Source: Rhodobacteraceae bacterium D3-12 (GTDB taxonomy: Bacteria; Pseudomonadota; Alphaproteobacteria; Rhodobacterales; Rhodobacteraceae). From it: a stretch of 64,000 nt of DNA. Made by a program: the position numbers and the translations under genes. Below the pieces are notes generated by a model. The model was not told the DNA's origin. It ran no database searches and saw only the letters and a list, made by a program, of their open reading frames with translations. How positions within the stretch are numbered: position 1 is the first letter of the stretch; every line of letters begins with the position of its first letter. Positions 4,094 through 62,566 of this stretch are shown here, piece by piece. The stretch lies in NCBI GenBank assembly GCA_025916135.1, contig CP104793.1, positions 62,001 through 126,000 of the forward strand, read 5' to 3'.

Positions 4094-6894
4094 CTAATGC
4101 GCGTCGGCCCAGTTCAGCCCCTGACCCGCGTCGACGGTCAGCGGCACGTCGAGGTGGACCGCCGGGTTGGCCGCGCTTTCCATCACGTCGCGGGCGGTGT
4201 CGATGAGTTTGGCGGCGGCGTCCTCGGGGACTTCGAACAGGAGTTCGTCGTGGACCTGCAACAACATCCGCGCCGGTTGTCCGGCGATGGCGTCGGGCAT
4301 ACGCACCATGGCGCGGCGGATCACGTCGGCGGCGGTGCCTTGGATCGGGGCGTTGATCGCGGCGCGTTTGGCAAAGCCGGCGCGCGGGCCTTTGGCGGCA
4401 ATCTCGGGCGTGTGGATTTTGCGGCCAAAGAGGGTTTGCACATAGCCGTGCTCTTTAGCGAAGGCGACCGTGTCATCCATATAGGTGCGGATGCCGGGGA
4501 AGCGCTCGAAATAGCGGTCGATAAAGCCTTGGGCTTCGGAGCGCGGAATGCGCAGGTTGCGAGCAAGGCCAAAGCCGGAGATGCCATAGATCACCCCGAA
4601 ATTGATCGCCTTGGCGCGGCGGCGGATGTCGGGGGTCATCTCGTCCATGGGCACGTCGAACATTTCCGAGGCGGTCATGGCGTGGATGTCATCGCCGCGT
4701 TTGAAGGCGGCTTTGAGCGCGTCGATCCCGGCGACATGGGCGAGGATGCGCAGCTCGATCTGGGAGTAATCGAGGCTGACCAGCACATTGCCTTGATCGG
4801 CCACGAAGGCCTCGCGGATGCGGCGGCCTTCTTCGGTGCGCACGGGGATGTTTTGCAGGTTGGGATCGGTCGAGGCGAGCCGCCCGGTTGAGGCACCGGT
4901 TTGCACATAGGAGGTGTGCACGCGCCCGGTTTCGGGGTTGATGTGGTCCTGTAGCGCGTCGGTATAGGTGGACTTCAGCTTGGACAGTTGGCGCCAGTCG
5001 AGCACGCGGGCGGGGAGTTCGTGTTCGGTGGCGAGGTCTTCGAGCACGTCCGCACCGGTGGCATAGGCGCCGGTCTTGCCCTTTTTGCCGCCTTCGAGGC
5101 CCATTTCATCGAACAGGATTTCGCCGAGTTGCTTGGGCGAGCCGACATTGAAGCTGCGGCCTGCGAGTTCGTGAATTTCCGCCTCGAGCCCGGCCATTTT
5201 CTGGGCGAAGGCGTTGGACATGCGGCTGAGCGTGTCGCGGTCGACCTTGATCCCGTGCATTTCCATTTCGGCGAGCACCGGCACCAGCGGGCGTTCGAGG
5301 GTTTCATAAACGGTTGTGACGCGTTTCACATGCAGTTGCGGTTTGAAGATTTGCCACAGGCGGAGCGTGATGTCGGCGTCTTCGGCGGCGTATTTGACCG
5401 CCTCGTCCAGCGGGACACGATCAAAGGTGATCGCCGATTTGCCGGTGCCGAGCAGTGATTTGATCGGAATCGGCGTGTGGCCGAGATAGCGATCCGAAAG
5501 CGCATCCATGCCGTGATTATGCACGCCGGAATAGAGCGCGTAGGACATCAGCATCGTGTCGTCGATGGGCGCGATGTTCACCCCGTGACGCGCAAAAATC
5601 TTGGCGTCGTATTTCATGTTTTGGCCGATTTTGAGGATCGCGTCGTCCTCGAGAATTGGCTTGAGGATGGCGAGCGCCTCGGCCGTGGTCATTTGACCGT
5701 CGGCGAGCGTGTCGGAGCCGAAGAGATCATCAGCCCCGCCGTCTTTGTGGATGAGCGGGATGTAGCAGGCATCCCCCGGTTCGACGCAGAGGGATATGCC
5801 GACCAGCTCGGCCTGCATTTCATCAAGCGAGGTGGTTTCGGTATCGACGGCGACATAGCCGCGTTTGTTAATCAGGGCGATCCAGCGGTCGAGGGCAGCC
5901 GCGTCGCGGATATGTTCGTATTTTTCGGGGTCGATGGCGGGCAGATCGGGGGTGGCGGCGGCTGCGCCGGCCTCGCCCACTGCGGGTTCGGGGATGTCGG
6001 GGCTTTCGACGCCCATCCGGTCGGCGATGCGTTTGGAAAGGGTGCGGAATTCCATCGATGCGAGGAAGGGCAGCAGGGCGTCCGGGTCGGGCCCTGCACT
6101 TCGAGGCTGTCGAGGGTGAAGTCGAGGGTCATGTCCTCTTTGAGTTGGACGAGATCGCGCGACATGCGGATCTGATCGGCCTTGTCGATAAGGGTCTCGC
6201 GGCGCTTGGGCTGTTTGATTTCGCCAGCGCGTTCGAGCAGCGCATCCAGATCGCCGTATTCGTTGATCAAAAGGGCGGCGGTTTTGATGCCGATGCCGGG
6301 CGCGCCGGGGACGTTATCGACGCTATCCCCGGCCAAGGCCTGAACATCGACGACGCGTTCGGGGGGGACGCCGAATTTGGCGATGACGCCGTCGCGGTCG
6401 ATGCGGTTGGCCTTCATCGGGTCGAGCATTTCGACGCCGCCGCCGACAAGTTGCATGAGGTCTTTGTCGGAGCTGATGATGGTGACGCGGCCACCGGCCT
6501 CGCGTGCTTGGCAGGCGAGGGTGGCGATGATGTCGTCGGCCTCGAAGCCTTCGACCTCGTGGCAGGAGATGTTGAAGGCGCGGGTGGCGTCGCGGGTCAG
6601 GGGGAACTGCGGGATCAGGTCTTCGGGCGCGGGGGGGCGGTTGGCTTTGTATTGGTCATAAAGCTCGTTGCGGAAGGTTTTGCCGGAGTAGTCGAAGATC
6701 ACGGCGGCATGGGTTGGGGCGTCGTCGCCCTTTGCGTCCTCGACGAATTTGAACAGCATGTTGCAGAAGCCGGCCACGGCGCCGATGGGCAGGCCATCGG
6801 ATTTGCGGGTCAGCGGGGGCAGCGCGTGATAGGCGCGGAAGATGAAGGCAGAGCCGTCGATGAGGTGCAGGTGGCAGCCTTTGCCGAATGACAT
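4094..6894 (-). CDS. polA: DNA polymerase I, interrupted by a -1 frameshift
   Basis: Replicative gap-filling and repair polymerase. The first frame starts at ATG 6894 (MSFGKGCHLHLIDGSAFIFRAYHALPP) and encodes the 5'-3' exonuclease domain with the helix-hairpin-helix (ALAGDSVDNVPGAPGIGIKTA). At about 6089-6091 a base is missing from a CCC(C) run. Adding one C restores VQGPDPDALLPFLASMEFRT and joins the second frame, which ends at 4094. That part carries an intact-looking 3'-5' exonuclease domain (VDTETTSLDE) and polymerase motifs A (DYSQIELRI), B (RRAKAINFGVIYG) and C (QVHDELLFEV). The repaired protein would be about 933 residues, normal for alphaproteobacterial PolA. All catalytic motifs are intact on both sides, so a sequence error is the simpler reading. 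Confidence 0.93.
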
Positions 6895-6996
6895 GGTGTG
6901 GTTCCCCCGGTTGGTTGGGACCCTGTGTCGCATATGGGCGTGCGCGGTGCCAGAGGGATTGCTGGTGCGCGCGTAAACTCGTGCGGCAACGGGCGC

Positions 6997-7114
6997 GAAT
7001 TCTGTCGCAGAATTCGGTCAAAAATCCGTTGCGGATTTTTGGGCGGTGCGGGACGGGGGCGGTGGGGGCAAAATCCGCGACGGATTTTAGGCCGTTTCCT
7101 GTGACAGGAAACGG
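6997..7114. repeat. four-hairpin array, copy A
   Basis: Four perfect inverted repeats, each with a 3-base loop: GAATTCTG-TCG-CAGAATTC (6997-7015), CAAAAATCCG-TTG-CGGATTTTTG (7019-7041), AAAATCCG-CGA-CGGATTTT (7070-7088) and CCGTTTCCTG-TGA-CAGGAAACGG (7092-7114). Spacing is 3, 28 and 3 bases. It fills half of the gap between the zinc-finger gene and polA, both on the minus strand; the last hairpin touches the zinc-finger gene's stop codon. The same architecture with different stem sequences is at 61235-61353. I know of no named element that it matches. Confidence 0.85.
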
Positions 7115-7297
7115 TTAGCTGGCTTTGCTTTCGACGTCGCGGTAGATGAATTTGGCATCGCAATAGGGGCATTCGACGAAGCCGGTGTCCTGTGGGATTT
7201 GCAGCCAGACACGGGGGTGGCCCAAGGCCCCTTCGCCGCCGTCACAGCAGACACGGTAGGAATCGACGATCTTGGTTTCGGGGGCTTGCGTGGTCAT
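7115..7297 (-). CDS. zinc-finger (zf-CHCC) domain protein
   Basis: A 60-residue protein with the pattern C-C-D-G-G-x(5)-G-H-P-R-V-x-L and a C-terminal E-C-P-Y-C-D-A-K-F. This is the zf-CHCC family related to the mitochondrial complex I subunit NDUFS6. Cys/His ligands lie at residues 17-18, 27, 43 and 46. In alphaproteobacteria such proteins are taken to bind zinc and to associate with respiratory complex I (family knowledge, not shown here). Length is normal. Its stop codon abuts the four-hairpin array. Confidence 0.9.
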
Positions 7298-19077: not shown

Positions 19078-19211
19078 GGTTAAGTCCCCTTCGGTTCATC
19101 CGTTGTTGAAGGGGGCATGTGAGAGGGGCGATGCGTTTTGCGTGGTCTCGACCCTATTACCCTCACGGAACACCCCGTCCGTTAAAATACCCAGACCCCG
19201 AGAGGTCCGAT

Positions 19212-19402
19212 GTGCAGGGCTGGTCTCCTGGCTCGCGGGTCGAAACGCTGCGCTACCTTCCCGAACCCGAGGCTCAGTGGCGTATTTGCGCGCGCTCACC
19301 GCTTACAGTCGCGGGGGCGGCTGCGGCTGAGGGCCCCGGTTTGGGTCACCCGATCCGCATTCCCATTTCATCCCAAGGGTGTTTCGCACCCCATAGGAAC
19401 CA
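19212..19402 (-). promoter_or_regulatory. cobalamin riboswitch
   Basis: Read on the minus strand, the conserved core of the adenosylcobalamin riboswitch is complete. It has a 5' paired arm ending in GGGAATGCGG, GCAGCCGCCCCCGCGACTGT with AAGCGG, the GCCACTG box, GGGAAGG, and the 3' box CGCGAGCCAGGAGACC. The 191-base length is normal. It lies 135 bases ahead of the hupE start and should repress hupE-cobW-GNAT-cobN when cobalamin is plentiful. The expression platform lies in 19078-19211; I see no strong U-tract terminator there, so control may be on translation. Confidence 0.96.
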
Positions 19403-19642
19403 TGCATGAGCCGATATGGTCGCAATTTCACGGCGCGGTCAAGATCGTTTGCGACAGGGCGTTGGGCGCTTTTGGGGGGGATGCGCGGCGCGTTGGGCAA
19501 TATCTTGTGGATAAATGAGCGGAAATCCCCAGATCATGGGTGTGCAGCGTTGACTCAGGGGTGGTGCGCCCGTCAAATTCGTCGGAAGCGGCAGAATCAA
19601 CCTCGCCATCAAGATCACTCATCAGAGCGGACCCCTTTATCC

Positions 19643-28383: not shown

Positions 28384-28463
28384 TTGGGGGCTGGCCCCCA
28401 ATCTAACCTGCGTTTGGGGGCTGGCCCCCAATTGAGCCTGTGTTTGGGGGCTGGCCTCCAACT
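28384..28463. repeat. three tandem 30-bp units each forming a TTGGGGGC/GCCCCCAA hairpin
   Basis: TTGGGGGCTGGCCCCCAA occurs at 28384 and 28414; a third at 28444 carries one mismatch (CCTCCAA). Units are separated by related CTAACCTGCG / TGAGCCTGTG spacers. They sit 36 bases before the tdh stop. A relative with compensated ends (GTGGGGG/CCCCCAC) is at 1820-1838. Confidence 0.85.
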
Positions 28464-53918: not shown

Positions 53919-54173
53919 ATGAAACTTGCAATCGCAACATTCTCGACCGCCCTCGTATTGGCCACTGGCGCATCCGCCATGGTTGGCACCTATGAACGTG
54001 CCGTGAACGAGGCGCCCGCGTCGAGCAGCTTGTTCACCACCGGCGAGCAGGAAGTGGTTTCGAACACCGCTTCGACCAGCCCCGGCGCGGAATACAACAA
54101 CGGTGAAGCCAAAGTGATCACCGTGTTTGAGAACGACAACGCTGGCCAGTTCATGGGTGCTGCTGCGCGCTAA
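53919..54173 (+). CDS. small secreted protein, array copy 1
   Basis: 84 residues: a signal peptide of about 20 residues (MKLAIATFSTALVLATGASA) and a mature part of 64 residues beginning MVGTYERAVNEAP. The mature part is polar, without Cys, and ends FENDNAGQFMGAAAR. I do not recognise the family. The signal peptide differs from copies 2-4 (LAIATFSTALVLA in place of LTIATLATAALFA), while the mature region is identical to copies 2 and 3. The ribosome-binding site is GAAAGGACA. Confidence 0.88.
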   Translation: MKLAIATFSTALVLATGASAMVGTYERAVNEAPASSSLFTTGEQEVVSNTASTSPGAEYNNGEAKVITVFENDNAGQFMGAAAR

Positions 54174-54238
54174 GACAAGCGCCCGCCCATCGAACTTGAA
54201 ACCGACACAGACTTATTTCTCTTGAAAGGAGAAACCCG

Positions 54239-54493
54239 ATGAAACTGACGATTGCCACACTCGCAACCGCCGCCCTTTTTGCCACTGGTGCTTCGGCCAT
54301 GGTTGGCACCTATGAACGTGCTGTGAACGAGGCGCCTGCTTCGAGCAGCCTTTTCACCACCGGCGAGCAGGAAGTGGTTTCGAACACCGCTTCGACCAGC
54401 CCCGGCGCGGAATACAACAACGGTGAAGCCAAAGTGATCACCGTGTTTGAGAACGACAACGCTGGCCAGTTCATGGGTGCTGCTGCGCGCTGA
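54239..54493 (+). CDS. small secreted protein, array copy 2
   Basis: 84 residues, signal peptide MKLTIATLATAALFATGASA and the same mature sequence as copy 1. It starts exactly 320 bases after copy 1. GAAAGGAGAAA lies before the start, and the 65-base spacer is identical to the next two spacers. It uses TGA where the other copies use TAA. Confidence 0.88.
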   Translation: MKLTIATLATAALFATGASAMVGTYERAVNEAPASSSLFTTGEQEVVSNTASTSPGAEYNNGEAKVITVFENDNAGQFMGAAAR

Positions 54494-54558
54494 GACAAGC
54501 GCCCGCCCATCGAACTTGAAACCGACACAGACTTATTTCTCTTGAAAGGAGAAACCCG

Positions 54559-54813
54559 ATGAAACTGACTATTGCCACACTCGCAACCGCCGCCCTTTTT
54601 GCCACTGGTGCTTCGGCCATGGTTGGCACCTATGAACGTGCTGTGAACGAGGCGCCCGCGTCGAGCAGCCTTTTCACCACCGGCGAGCAGGAAGTGGTTT
54701 CGAACACCGCTTCGACCAGCCCCGGCGCGGAATACAACAACGGTGAAGCCAAAGTGATCACCGTGTTTGAGAACGACAACGCTGGCCAGTTCATGGGTGC
54801 TGCTGCGCGCTAA
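54559..54813 (+). CDS. small secreted protein, array copy 3
   Basis: Protein identical to copy 2 and again 320 bases further on. At DNA level it is mosaic: most silent sites follow copy 2, but the CCCGCG codon pair near residue 33 follows copy 1. No promoter is evident in the short spacer, so the four genes are probably one transcript. Confidence 0.88.
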   Translation: MKLTIATLATAALFATGASAMVGTYERAVNEAPASSSLFTTGEQEVVSNTASTSPGAEYNNGEAKVITVFENDNAGQFMGAAAR

Positions 54814-54878
54814 GACAAGCGCCCGCCCATCGAACTTGAAACCGACACAGACTTATTTCTCTTGAAAGGAGAAACCCG

Positions 54879-55133
54879 ATGAAACTGACTATTGCAACAC
54901 TCGCCACCGCCGCCCTTTTTGCCACTGGCGCATCCGCCATGGTTGGCACCTATGAACGTGCCGTGAACGAGGCGCCTGCCGCGAGCAGCCTGTTCACCAC
55001 CGGCGAGCAGGAAGTGGTTTCGAACACCGCTTCGACCAGCCCCGGTGCGGAATACAACAACGGTGAAGCCAAAGTGATCACCGTGTTTGAGAACGACAAC
55101 GCTGGCCAGTTCATGGGCGCCGCTGCGCGCTAA
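54879..55133 (+). CDS. small secreted protein, array copy 4
   Basis: As copies 2-3 apart from Ala for Ser in EAPAASS. Silent sites around the signal-peptide cleavage region (GGCGCATCCGCC, GTGCCGTG) match copy 1 rather than copies 2-3, which points to exchange between copies. A strong terminator follows at 55156. Confidence 0.88.
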   Translation: MKLTIATLATAALFATGASAMVGTYERAVNEAPAASSLFTTGEQEVVSNTASTSPGAEYNNGEAKVITVFENDNAGQFMGAAAR

Positions 55134-58135: not shown

Positions 58136-58446
58136 GTGATGAAGTCTCCGTTGGCGACTTGGTAAAGCGTTTCGACGAAAGCTTGAACCACGATTTTTTC
58201 CAAGCGCTTTAGGCGAGGGGCGCGCGGGCGGCAAGGGGGCGCTCTCCGACGCGGTGGGAGAGGGTTTTGGCGGGCAATGCGCGGGGGTGTTTTTGGCAAG
58301 ATGCAGGCGGTGGGCGCGCGCGTTGGTGGCGGGGTGCAGCGGATCGGAAACCTCTGTGGCGCAAATTGCAGGTGTCGTGTCGGGATTGGGGGATGGGCGC
58401 GAAATGCGGCGTGGTTTACTGTGAGGGCCAAGCAGGAGGGCGCGCG

Positions 58447-61230
58447 ATGGGCGAGACAATTCGATTCACGCTGGATGGCGAAGCGGTTGAAGCGGACAAG
58501 GGGCTGACCATTTGGGAGGTCGCGCATGGCCGTGGCTTGGTCATTCCGCATCTGTGCCACAAGCCCGCGCCGGGGTATCGCCCTGATGGCAATTGCCGCG
58601 CCTGTATGGTCGAGATCGAGGGCGAGCGCACCTTGGCGGCGTCATGCATCCGCGAGCCTGCCGACGGCATGGTGGTGACCACCAATTCGGCCCGCGCAGA
58701 GAGTGCGCGCAAGATGGTGGTTGAGATGCTGGCCGCGGATATGCCGGAGCGCGAGGTGGCGCATGACCGCTCGGCGCATTTCTGGGATATGGCCGAGGCG
58801 AATGGGGTGAGCGAGAGCCGTCTGCCCAAGATGGAACAGGACCGCGTTCCGCTTTTGGATGACAGCCATGTGGCGATGCGGGTGAATTTGGATGCGTGCA
58901 TTTCGTGCGGCTTGTGTGTGCGGGCCTGTCGCGAGGTTCAGGTGAATGATGTGATCGGCATGGCCGGGCGTGGGCATAGCGCGTTTCCGGTGTTCGACAT
59001 GGATGACCCGATGGGTGCGAGCAGCTGTGTCGCTTGCGGCGAATGTGTGCAGGCCTGCCCGACCGGTGCGTTGATGCCGGCGACGGTTCTGGACGAGGAA
59101 CAGCGCGGCGACGGGGCGGCGTTTGATCGCGAGGTGGCGAGCGTTTGCCCGTTTTGCGGTGTCGGCTGTCAGGTCTCGCTCAAGGTCAAGGACGACAAGG
59201 TGGTTTATGTCGATGGGATCGACGGGCCAGCCAATGAGGGGCGTTTGTGCGTCAAGGGGCGGTTCGGGTTTGATTATATCCACCATCCGCATCGGCTTAC
59301 CCAGCCGTTGATCCGGCGCGAGGATGCGCCCGCGAAGGGGTTGAACGTGGACCCCGGCAATTGGAGCGAGGTGTTTCGCGAGGCCAGTTGGGACGAGGCA
59401 ATGGAGGCCGCCGCCGGAGGGTTGGCGACATTGCGCGACGGGTCCGGGGGCCGGTCGGTGGCCGGGTTTGGCAGCGCGAAATGCACCAACGAGGAGGCCT
59501 ATCTGTTTCAGAAGCTGATCCGGCAGGGGTTTGGCCATAACAACGTCGATCACTGCACGCGGCTGTGCCATGCGTCGTCCGTCGCGGCGTTGATGGAGAA
59601 CGTGGGAAGCGGCGCCGTGACGGCAACGTTCAACGAGATCGAGAATGCCGATGTGGCCATCGTGATCGGGGCGAACCCGGTTGAGAACCATCCGGTCGCG
59701 GCGACGTTTTTCAAACAGTTCGTGAAGCGCGGCGGCAAGTTGATTGTCATGGACCCGCGCGGCGTGGGGCTTCGCCGGTTTGCCAGCCATATGTTGCAAT
59801 TCCGGCCGGGCGCGGATGTGAGCATGCTCAACGCGATCATGAACGTAATCGTGGAAGAGCAGCTTTATGACAGCCAGTATATCCACCGCTTTACCGAGAA
59901 TTGGGAGGCCGAGAAGGCGCATTTACGCGACTTTACCCCCGAGAAAATGAGCGAGATTTGCGGCATTGCGCCCGAGGTGTTGCGCGATGTGGCGCGGACC
60001 TTTGCCGGGGCCAAAGCGGGCATGATTTTCTGGGGTATGGGGGTGAGCCAGCACATTCATGGCACGGATAATTCGCGCTGTCTGATCTCGCTCGCTTTGA
60101 TGACTGGGAATGTGGGCAAGCCGGGGGCCGGGCTGCATCCGCTGCGCGGGCAGAACAACGTGCAAGGTGCGAGCGATGCTGGGTTGGTGCCGATGTTCCT
60201 GCCGGATTATCAGAGCGTGATGGATGATGGTGTGCGCAGCGCGTTCAACGAGATTTGGGGCGAGCAGGGGTATGATGACCCCGAAAAAGGTTTGACCGTG
60301 ACCGAGATTATGGACGCGGTGCATGAGGGGCAGATCAAAGGCATGTATGTCTTGGGCGAGAACCCGGCGATGAGTGATCCGGATGTGGAGCACGCGCGCG
60401 ATGCGCTGGCCAAGTTGGAGCATCTGGTGGTGCAGGACATTTTCCTGACCGAGACGGCGAATTATGCTGATGTGATTCTTCCGGCCTCGGCGTTTTATGA
60501 AAAATCCGGAACGGTGACGAACACCAACCGGCAGGTGCAGATGGGCCGTCCAGCCGTGCCGCCGCCGGGGAACGCGCGCGAGGATTGGGCGATCACATTA
60601 GAGTTGGCACAGCGGTTGGGGTTGGGGTGGACGTATAACAGCCCGGCGGATGTGTTTGCCGAGATGAAGCGCGGGATGGGCTCGCTCGACAATATCACGT
60701 GGGACCGGTTGGCGGGCGAGAATGCGGTGACTTATCCGTCGCTGTCGCCGGAGGATCCGGGGCAGGCGATTGTGTTTGCCGATGGGTTTCCACGGGATGA
60801 GGGGCGGGCGAAGTTCACTCCGGCGAGCGTGATTGCACCGGATGAAGCGCCGGATGCAGACTATCCGATGATTTTGACCACGGGGCGGCAATTGGAGCAT
60901 TGGCACACCGGGTCGATGACGCGGCGCTCGAAGGTGTTGGACGCGGTGGAGCCGGAGGCGAATTGCTCGCTCCACCCCAAGACGTTGCGCAAGCTGGGGG
61001 TTGAGCCGGGGGGCATGGTGCGCCTGTCGACCCGGCGCGGCACGGTGACCGTGATGGCACGGGCCGATCGAGCGGTGGCCGAGGATATGGTGTTTTTGCC
61101 CTTTGCCTATGTCGAGGCGGCGGCGAATATCCTGACCAACCCGGCGTTGGACCCTTATGGCAAAATCCCGGAGTTCAAATTCTCGGCCGTGAAGGTCGAG
61201 AAAGTTGAAGGAACGGTGGCAGCGGAGTAG
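58447..61230 (+). CDS. formate dehydrogenase alpha subunit, molybdopterin/Fe-S
   Basis: A 927-residue catalytic subunit. It has an N-terminal [2Fe-2S] ferredoxin domain (residues 1-80: HLCHKPAPGYRPDGNCRACMVEIEG), two 4Fe-4S clusters (CISCGLCVRAC and CVACGECVQACP, about 150-210), and a molybdopterin domain cluster (CPFCGVGC, about 234). The active-site Cys is in DHCTRLCH (about 375), so it uses Cys rather than selenocysteine. The C-terminal molydopterin-dinucleotide-binding domain includes TTGRQLEHWHTGSMTRRS. It resembles FdsA/FdhF-type NAD-linked enzymes, but no beta, gamma or FdhD gene is adjacent. CAGGAGG precedes ATG 58447. Confidence 0.93.
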   Translation: MGETIRFTLDGEAVEADKGLTIWEVAHGRGLVIPHLCHKPAPGYRPDGNCRACMVEIEGERTLAASCIREPADGMVVTTNSARAESARKMVVEMLAADMPEREVAHDRSAHFWDMAEANGVSESRLPKMEQDRVPLLDDSHVAMRVNLDACISCGLCVRACREVQVNDVIGMAGRGHSAFPVFDMDDPMGASSCVACGECVQACPTGALMPATVLDEEQRGDGAAFDREVASVCPFCGVGCQVSLKVKDDKVVYVDGIDGPANEGRLCVKGRFGFDYIHHPHRLTQPLIRREDAPAKGLNVDPGNWSEVFREASWDEAMEAAAGGLATLRDGSGGRSVAGFGSAKCTNEEAYLFQKLIRQGFGHNNVDHCTRLCHASSVAALMENVGSGAVTATFNEIENADVAIVIGANPVENHPVAATFFKQFVKRGGKLIVMDPRGVGLRRFASHMLQFRPGADVSMLNAIMNVIVEEQLYDSQYIHRFTENWEAEKAHLRDFTPEKMSEICGIAPEVLRDVARTFAGAKAGMIFWGMGVSQHIHGTDNSRCLISLALMTGNVGKPGAGLHPLRGQNNVQGASDAGLVPMFLPDYQSVMDDGVRSAFNEIWGEQGYDDPEKGLTVTEIMDAVHEGQIKGMYVLGENPAMSDPDVEHARDALAKLEHLVVQDIFLTETANYADVILPASAFYEKSGTVTNTNRQVQMGRPAVPPPGNAREDWAITLELAQRLGLGWTYNSPADVFAEMKRGMGSLDNITWDRLAGENAVTYPSLSPEDPGQAIVFADGFPRDEGRAKFTPASVIAPDEAPDADYPMILTTGRQLEHWHTGSMTRRSKVLDAVEPEANCSLHPKTLRKLGVEPGGMVRLSTRRGTVTVMARADRAVAEDMVFLPFAYVEAAANILTNPALDPYGKIPEFKFSAVKVEKVEGTVAAE

Positions 61231-61234
61231 GCGC

Positions 61235-61353
61235 GAATTCTTTTGAAGAATTCGGTCAATTTTCCTTCGAGGAAAATTGGATGCTTGCGGAGCGGGTGCT
61301 GTGGGTCCTAAAAATCCTTGGAGGATTTTTGACGTTTTTCGCGACGAAAAACG
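61235..61353. repeat. four-hairpin array, copy B
   Basis: GAATTCTT-TTG-AAGAATTC (61235-61253), CAATTTTCCT-TCG-AGGAAAATTG (61257-61279), AAAAATCCT-TGG-AGGATTTTT (61310-61330) and CGTTTTTCG-CGA-CGAAAAACG (61333-61353). Spacers are 3, 30 and 2 bases. All stems are perfect and all loops are 3 bases, as in copy A at 6997-7114. It begins 4 bases after the formate dehydrogenase stop and ends 16 bases before the next start codon. Confidence 0.88.
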
Positions 61354-61369: not shown

Positions 61370-62566
61370 ATGAAAATCAATTCGGAACGGTTTTTAGCTG
61401 ATCTACATAGGCTGCGGCAATTTGGGGCAATCGGGATTGGCAAGGGTGTGGTGCGTCCGGCCTATTCCAAGCCCGATATCGAGGCGCGTGAATGGTTGCG
61501 TGGCAGAATGGAAGAGGCCGGGCTTGTCACGCATTATGATCCGATGGGAAACCTGTTCGGATTGGCGGAGGGTAAATCCATATTGATGGGGTCGCACACC
61601 GACAGCCAGCCAGAGGGCGGTTGGTTGGACGGGGCGCTGGGTGTGATTGCGGCGCTGGAGGTGGCGCGGGCGAGCCAGGAGGCGGGCGGGCCAGCTGTTT
61701 CGGTTGTGTCGTTTCAAGACGAAGAGGGGCGCTTTGGTGTCACCACGGGTAGCACGGTCTGGTCGGGGAAGCTTCGCTTGGAGGATGCCGACGCGTTGAC
61801 CGATCGCGAGGGTGTGACGCTGGCCGAGGCGCGTTCGGCCATGGCGCATCTGATCGGGGATTGGGTTGATCCGGCGCGGTTTTCCGGTTTTATCGAGGCA
61901 CATATTGAGCAGGGGCCGTGGCTGGATCAGGCGGGCGAAGCCGTGGGCGTGGTTAGCGATATCGTCGGAATCCGAGATATGCGCATCACGTTTGAGGGTG
62001 AGCAAAACCACGCGGGCACCACGCCGATGCATCTGCGCCGCGATGCGTTTCAGGGGCTGGCAGAATTCAACGCCAAGCTTAACACCCGGTTTCAGAATGT
62101 TGTTACGCCGCAGACCGTTTGGACCATTGGCCATGTCAGCCTGCACCCGGATGCGCATTCGATTGTGCCGGGGCGGGCGGTGTTTTCGATGCAATGGCGC
62201 GACGGCGATAGCGAGCGATTAAAGCGGATGGAGGCGATCATTCGTGACACGGCGAACGAAGTCGCCGGGGCGCGCGGTTTGACGCTTGAGTATGGCCAGA
62301 TGCTGGGCCTTGAGCCGGTGGAAATGGATGGCAGCCTGCGCGCCGCGTTGGAAGCGAGTGCCGAGGCGGCAGTGCCCGGCAAATGGCGGGTGATGCCGTC
62401 GGGTGCGTTGCATGATGCGACCAATGTGGCGGTTATGATGCCGGTTGCGATGATGTTTGTGCCCTCGATCAACGGGATCAGCCACGCGTTTGAAGAAGAC
62501 ACGGACGAGCGCGATCTGGTTGCCGGGGCTCAGGTTCTGGCGGGTGCTGTGGCGCGGTTGGGGTGA
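61370..62566 (+). CDS. M20-type hydantoinase/carbamoylase (Zn-dependent amidohydrolase)
   Basis: A 398-residue di-zinc peptidase-fold enzyme of the N-carbamoyl-L-amino-acid hydrolase / allantoate amidohydrolase group. Metal ligands are seen in [22 protein letters not shown] (His and Asp), [10 protein letters not shown] (Glu pair), [15 protein letters not shown] (His) and [12 protein letters not shown] (final His). The dimerisation lid contains [14 protein letters not shown]. Substrate is likely a ureido or carbamoyl compound. The start is ATG 61370. Confidence 0.92.

Follow-up and report, generated by a model that had tools for sequence, protein, structure and literature searches.

REP/BIME elements (GTAG superfamily) are short dispersed palindromes located at gene 3' ends, which occur in inverted pairs, are heterogeneous among copies, carry an unpaired GTAG tetranucleotide at one foot and are associated with RAYT transposases. 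Hairpin pairs are also found between genes in organelles (sponge, Volvox), in the form of double hairpin elements, which are palindromic selfish elements. In Alphaproteobacteria, a group of repeats is recognized by a CGTC (or TGTC/CCTC) tag, a CCA tail and loops of 4-5 nt (PMC3733652). The window analyzed here, a 64,000-nt stretch of DNA, contains two arrays of four hairpins each, located at 6996-7114 and 61234-61353. The initial annotation had described four perfect stems of 8-10 bp with 3-nt loops in both, and this description holds for all eight stems and every loop, with coordinates that were off by one base. The spacing it gave between stems (3, 28-30 and 2-3 nt) is right except for the first gap, which is 2 nt and not 3: the gaps are 2/28/3 nt in array 1 and 2/30/2 nt in array 2. 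The arrays and their neighbors are listed below (no strand is assigned to hairpins and spacers). Neighboring genes were taken from custom gene calls, of which the one beside array 1 was wrong and was corrected using Pfam.

5872-6933, minus strand: 5'-3' exonuclease part of polA (PF02739, PF01367), downstream of array 1 in tandem arrangement
6996-7016, no strand: array 1 hairpin H1 (outer), CGAATTCTG-TCG-CAGAATTCG, 9 bp stem
7019-7041, no strand: array 1 hairpin H2 (inner), 10 bp stem, centre 24 nt from H1
7042-7069, no strand: array 1 spacer, G-rich, 28 nt, differing among copies
7070-7088, no strand: array 1 hairpin H3 (inner hairpin of the facing unit), 8 bp stem
7092-7114, no strand: array 1 hairpin H4 (outer), 10 bp stem, abutting the minus-strand stop codon TAA at 7115-7117
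7115-7297, minus strand: zf-CHCC zinc-finger protein of 60 aa (Pfam PF10276), its stop codon directly beside H4
58267-61230, plus strand: molybdopterin oxidoreductase, formate-dehydrogenase-like, its stop codon 3 nt before array 2
61234-61254, no strand: array 2 hairpin H1 (outer), 9 bp stem
61257-61279, no strand: array 2 hairpin H2 (inner), 10 bp stem
61280-61309, no strand: array 2 spacer, 30 nt
61310-61330, no strand: array 2 hairpin H3 (inner), 9 bp stem
61333-61353, no strand: array 2 hairpin H4 (outer), 9 bp stem, centre 23 nt from H3
61370-62566, plus strand: M20 family peptidase/amidohydrolase (Pfam PF01546), downstream of array 2

The whole polA region (4094-6933, minus strand) apparently consists of two overlapping ORFs in different frames, of which one (353 aa) carries the 5'-3' exonuclease domains and the other (653 aa) both the 3'-5' exonuclease and the polymerase domains; the split is either a real frameshift or a sequencing error. 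Elsewhere in the window, four equal ORFs of 84 aa with a period of 320 bp (53919-55133) apparently form a direct tandem repeat. The hairpin TTGGGGGCTGGCCCCCAA, present twice, 30 bp apart, at 28384-28431, and its near copy GTGGGGGCTGACCCCCAC at 1821-1838 represent another type of small palindromic repeat.

Folding of the arrays is far stronger than that of shuffled sequences, with z-scores of -4.8 to -7.7 in all, those for folding as RNA on both strands being -4.8 to -7.5 and those for folding as DNA about -7.5. A survey of 464 kb of the host genome found 14 cases of perfect stems (at least 8 bp, 3-nt loops) lying no more than 100 bp apart; in nine of these 14 close pairs the distance between centres is exactly 24 nt, while first-order Markov shuffles yield no pairs. 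A switch based on H2-H3 pairing was considered and rejected: such pairing is possible in array 1, but in many copies the two stems are unlike each other.

In line with the covariance model and genome search that the initial annotation had proposed, further copies were found both in the host genome and in its relatives. Searching the host genome with blastn produced 17 matches, and a covariance model built from 15 aligned host copies produced 76, corresponding to about 38 distinct sites after matches on the two strands were combined (about 20 four-hairpin arrays plus two- or three-hairpin forms). This census combines the covariance-model search with samples of the genome, and imperfect arrays are under-counted in it, as the model derives from perfect arrays and perfect 7-bp anchors were required. 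The layout is nearly uniform among copies, with centre-to-centre distances of 24 nt from H1 to H2 and 24 nt (sometimes 23) from H3 to H4, on either side of a variable spacer. The pitch within a unit is thus fixed at 24 (23-25) nt, whereas the H2-to-H3 distance varies from 24 to 78 nt, and one copy consists of three hairpins.

Matches were obtained in 11 of 41 genomes (the host being among the 41) and, at E<=1e-6, in 25 of 248 Rhodobacteraceae genomes. Full four-hairpin arrays are found in at least seven other genera; the genomes carrying them include G010, G069, G154, G121, G165, G195 and Rhodobacteraceae bacterium 63075, and, less cleanly, G099. Two-hairpin forms occur in more genera and keep the 23-24 nt pitch, for example in G004, which has seven of them in 400 kb. 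The congener G001 shows only three weak matches, and no such hairpin pair in 400 kb. The family is patchy within Rhodobacteraceae, and no plasmid or phage copy was detected by blastn. Motifs resembling GGCTGACATCCGGCTGAC recur in the flanks of four host arrays (L017, L018, L027 and L041) and possibly represent a further repeat family. Orientation relative to the replichore was also considered: strand assignment, in which L041, L045 and L049 are plus-strand loci, tracks local GC skew, yet the signal lies mostly in loops and spacers. This link was dropped because loops and spacers carry strand composition bias and the element is nearly dyad-symmetric; a dif-like pattern search for the terminus found nothing.

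The loops of H3 and H4 are the reverse complement of those of H1 and H2, and the element therefore consists of two facing double-hairpin units. Read inward from the flanking gene, 184 of the 236 hairpin loops are NCG and none is CGN, so that the apex is both conserved and oriented. All loops contain CG in G154, G165, G195 and G010, and in the host most non-NCG loops are TCA or TTG, which are transitions of TCG. Both the base that opens the loop and the closing pair are specific to the genome (chi-square p values of 1e-37 and 3e-23, which are indicative only, as hairpins within a genome are non-independent). Loops follow genome dialects: G(ACG)C is the form in G165 and predominates in G121, T(NCG)A predominates in G069, and G(GCG)C does so in G195 and G010.

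Arrays are placed at gene ends. Among the 65 arrays with called neighbors, the flanking genes are convergent in 30, tandem in 31 and divergent in four. Compared with intergenic regions of at least 90 bp in two of the genomes (58 convergent and 95 divergent out of 338), convergent pairs are enriched (30/65 versus 58/338, p 2e-6) and divergent pairs depleted (p 6e-5). In 49 of the 65 arrays the outer stem begins no more than 15 nt from a stop codon, with a median gap of 6 nt, compared with 27% under random placement; in a few cases the stop codon lies inside a hairpin loop, three of them exactly so in one other genome. For two-hairpin forms, clear cases were too few to establish how they are oriented with respect to the neighboring gene. 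In G019 (L053, about 1500-1620), a hairpin type of another kind (GAATTCCATATGGAATTC, GGAAACCACATGGTTTCC) is found downstream of an apparent valS gene end, which resembles a site where three other genera have an array.

Such a position raises the possibility of a bidirectional RNA element, acting as a terminator or as an mRNA 3'-end stabilizer and selected at the RNA level in both flanking transcripts. Proximity to stop codons, convergent enrichment and hairpin stability (about -9 to -10 kcal/mol) are all consistent with this view, as is the bias of inner hairpins towards A-run/U-run polarity (54 A:38 T, versus 20:45 for outer hairpins, p 7e-4). However, the arrays lack a U tract: five T in eight bases are found after only one of 118 inner hairpins, and A/T polarity flips freely among copies. 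The intrinsic terminator, defined by a GC-rich stem and a U tract, was accordingly rejected as a candidate, and no terminator-like site was found around array 1, in agreement with the initial statement that these are not ordinary terminators.

The compensatory differences first noticed between the two window arrays hold: across 15 copies in the host genome, both members have changed in 28 of 37 pairs. In the 15 aligned copies, 98.9% of cells are paired; shuffling partners between copies lowers this figure to 75.1%, and shifting the partner by a single column lowers it to 57-63%. The proposal that structure is kept under changing sequence is borne out by these figures, and the arrays are under a folded-single-strand constraint. 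Flanking proteins further identified seven sets of orthologous array positions across two to four genera, such as the array following a valS-like C-terminus gene end in G000, G010 and G069. Among the 352 pair positions of these sets, 236 are unchanged, 115 are changed on both sides to another Watson-Crick pair and a single one has lost its pairing; swaps from A-T to T-A account for 42 of the changes.

The test for structured RNA gave strong stem covariation with G-U intermediates almost absent. The 59 full arrays comprise 1888 stem cells, of which 1873 are Watson-Crick, two G-U and five A-C, whereas terminator-like hairpins from the same genomes contain 15-17% G-U when G-U is allowed; perfect arrays are favored by ascertainment, but a G-U gap of this size is hard to explain in this way. 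G-U is avoided even in the 27 tandem arrays (none in 864 cells), where only one strand is expected as transcript, which argues against an RNA element. Because pairing is nearly pure Watson-Crick, hairpins formed or corrected at the DNA level are preferred over RNA selection alone, and we conclude from these sequence comparisons that pairing is probably maintained at the DNA level, or corrected too fast for intermediates to show. Nothing demonstrates a non-coding RNA, the kind of system for which the initial annotation had proposed the arrays as a candidate, and a bidirectional RNA element is in our opinion a possible but doubtful explanation. Palindromes at a fixed 24 bp pitch with a conserved apex could also be sites for a protein that binds double-stranded DNA, but a protein reading the sequence would not require the 42 mid-stem A-T/T-A swaps to be exactly compensated between orthologues, and this interpretation is very improbable.

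Comparison of orthologous sites provides evidence of both persistence and turnover. Six host sites could be located by their flanks in the congener G001, and the array is absent from all six; one of them retains AAAGAATTCGCCTTC, which is half of one host hairpin plus flank. At the L025 site, G069 carries a mismatched relic, and at L030 the host has an array while three other genomes (genera or species) have none. Overall, arrays have decayed or are absent at orthologous sites in the congener and in two other genera. Arrays are thus old at some sites and lost at others, and they were probably gained at others still. We know of no other reason for the congener to have lost every site checked than the loss of something acting in trans, which this pattern would imply.

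A rival explanation is a miniature inverted-repeat transposon, whose terminal inverted repeats would be the double-hairpin units, mobilized in trans by a putative hairpin-recognizing transposase, and whose 3'-end position would reflect tolerated insertions. The dyad symmetry, the inward-facing units, the variable centre (24-78 nt), the roughly 38 dispersed sites in the host and the L030 array are in agreement with this hypothesis, and the three stop codons lying exactly in hairpin loops look as if insertions had provided gene ends. Conversely, no longer copy with a gene between units was seen, no target duplication was recognized at the array-less sites read in three genomes, plasmids and phages are without matches, and seven sites are common to several genera with pairing kept. 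Mobilization by a RAYT was rejected, as PF01797 (Y1_Tnp) is absent from the host and above cut-off in one of 12 related genomes; no Y1/RAYT transposase was found in the host, nor in 10 of the 12 related array-bearing genomes. We regard a non-autonomous transposon as conceivable but tentative; it is, with the RNA-level element, one of the two chief rivals, and the chances we allow these two and the main reading overlap.

Another possibility is that the arrays are a mutational by-product, with template switching during replication keeping inverted repeats perfect in the absence of selection, since perfect stems and paired changes are reported to arise and persist through such switching (PMC8794818). 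The direct A-T to T-A swaps without intermediates fit this hypothesis, but it does not account for array decay elsewhere (in the congener, and in the mismatched relic of G069), and it leaves pitch, stop-codon spacing and loop dialects unexplained. Moreover, template switching also inverts loops, and inverted loops number 0 of 236. Because this inversion is never seen, the loop apex must be constrained as well as the stems. As a sole cause, template switching is unlikely, and a purely mutational origin appears quite improbable.

The reading we favor, with a probability of about 0.5, is that the arrays form a Rhodobacteraceae family of REP/BIME-like dispersed palindromic elements, which act at the 3' ends of genes in the form of folded single strands; the likeness to REP/BIME is drawn because of their gene 3'-end position, their dispersion, and their gain and loss between genera. 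Hairpins would be extruded in DNA, on the lagging-strand template or as a cruciform, and would also be carried into the transcript 3' UTR. There they would mark a two-way gene end, as a transcript 3' end, a decay barrier or a transcription boundary for both flanking genes, and a function as a two-way gene-end boundary is what their placement probably indicates. The palindromes would be kept perfect at the DNA level by arm-to-arm copying during replication, by selection, or by both. A putative trans-acting factor may read the loop apex, and its change or loss would account for the genome dialects and for the wholesale loss in the congener. Three observations sit uneasily with this family of gene-end elements: selection for RNA folding alone would not be expected to leave G-U nearly absent, the congener lives without arrays and shows no obvious terminators in their place at the sites read, and purifying selection leaves any intergenic repeat at 3' ends too. 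A more specific version, which we consider rather unlikely, is a gene-end punctuation system, in which paired hairpins at a 24-nt pitch would follow stop codons, their apex would be read single-stranded by a dedicated factor, dialects would co-evolve with it in each genome, and all sites would collapse once the factor is lost.

Whatever their function, the arrays offer many independent orthologous perfect hairpins in which paired changes can be traced across genera, and such a set makes it possible to distinguish between RNA-level selection, DNA-level selection and template-switch correction. Given the loop dialects and the loss in the congener, it is practicable to search for the putative reading factor. 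If the arrays truly are gene-end markers, they would constitute a 3'-end module that lacks a U tract, in a bacterial family that is widespread.

How the arrays relate to described elements can now be specified. They are without an Rfam match, in keeping with the initial annotation, which could name no element matching them: nothing reached the gathering threshold for the arrays in the window, a permissive scan of array 1 yielded 13.5 bits at best versus 45, and no match was found at 11 loci with related arrays. The only Rfam match elsewhere in the window is a cobalamin riboswitch (19201-19419, minus strand, 112.7 bits). The outcomes named beforehand as telling against the arrays were a lack of further copies, a match to a known family and stems no more paired than shuffled sequence; copies exist, neither an Rfam nor a tagged-REP match was obtained, and pairing is far above that of shuffles. 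In the literature, our incomplete coverage of which revealed no paper naming these sequences or such a Rhodobacteraceae palindromic repeat, and in the other resources searched, the family is described nowhere; its closest kinds are REP/BIME and the CGTC-tagged repeats.

Organelle double hairpin elements, likened here by description only, are also intergenic hairpin pairs, but belong to another lineage, and to our knowledge the dyad four-hairpin layout and the stop-codon spacing are not known in them. Bidirectional intrinsic terminators share the convergent position and the two-way symmetry, and some inner array hairpins are A-tract/stem/U-tract palindromes; however, arrays lack a U tract after the stem, their polarity is unconserved and they place two hairpins at each gene end. 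The CGTC-tagged repeats resemble the arrays in being alphaproteobacterial, with 8-9 bp stems, head-to-head dimers and no dedicated transposase known (PMC3733652), but the arrays have 3-nt loops, and their hairpins are flanked by neither a common tag nor a common tail. Like REP/BIME, the arrays are dispersed intergenic palindromes of 20-40 bp, heterogeneous, in inverted pairs and at gene 3' ends. They differ from them by the lack of a shared GTAG foot in aligned or orthologous copies, by the lack of RAYT/Y1_Tnp in the host and most related genomes, and by their four hairpins with a 24-nt pitch, 3-nt NCG loops and perfect stems abutting stop codons. In the arrays, sequence changes freely, but always in such a way that hairpins stay perfect, and the modules sit directly after stop codons.
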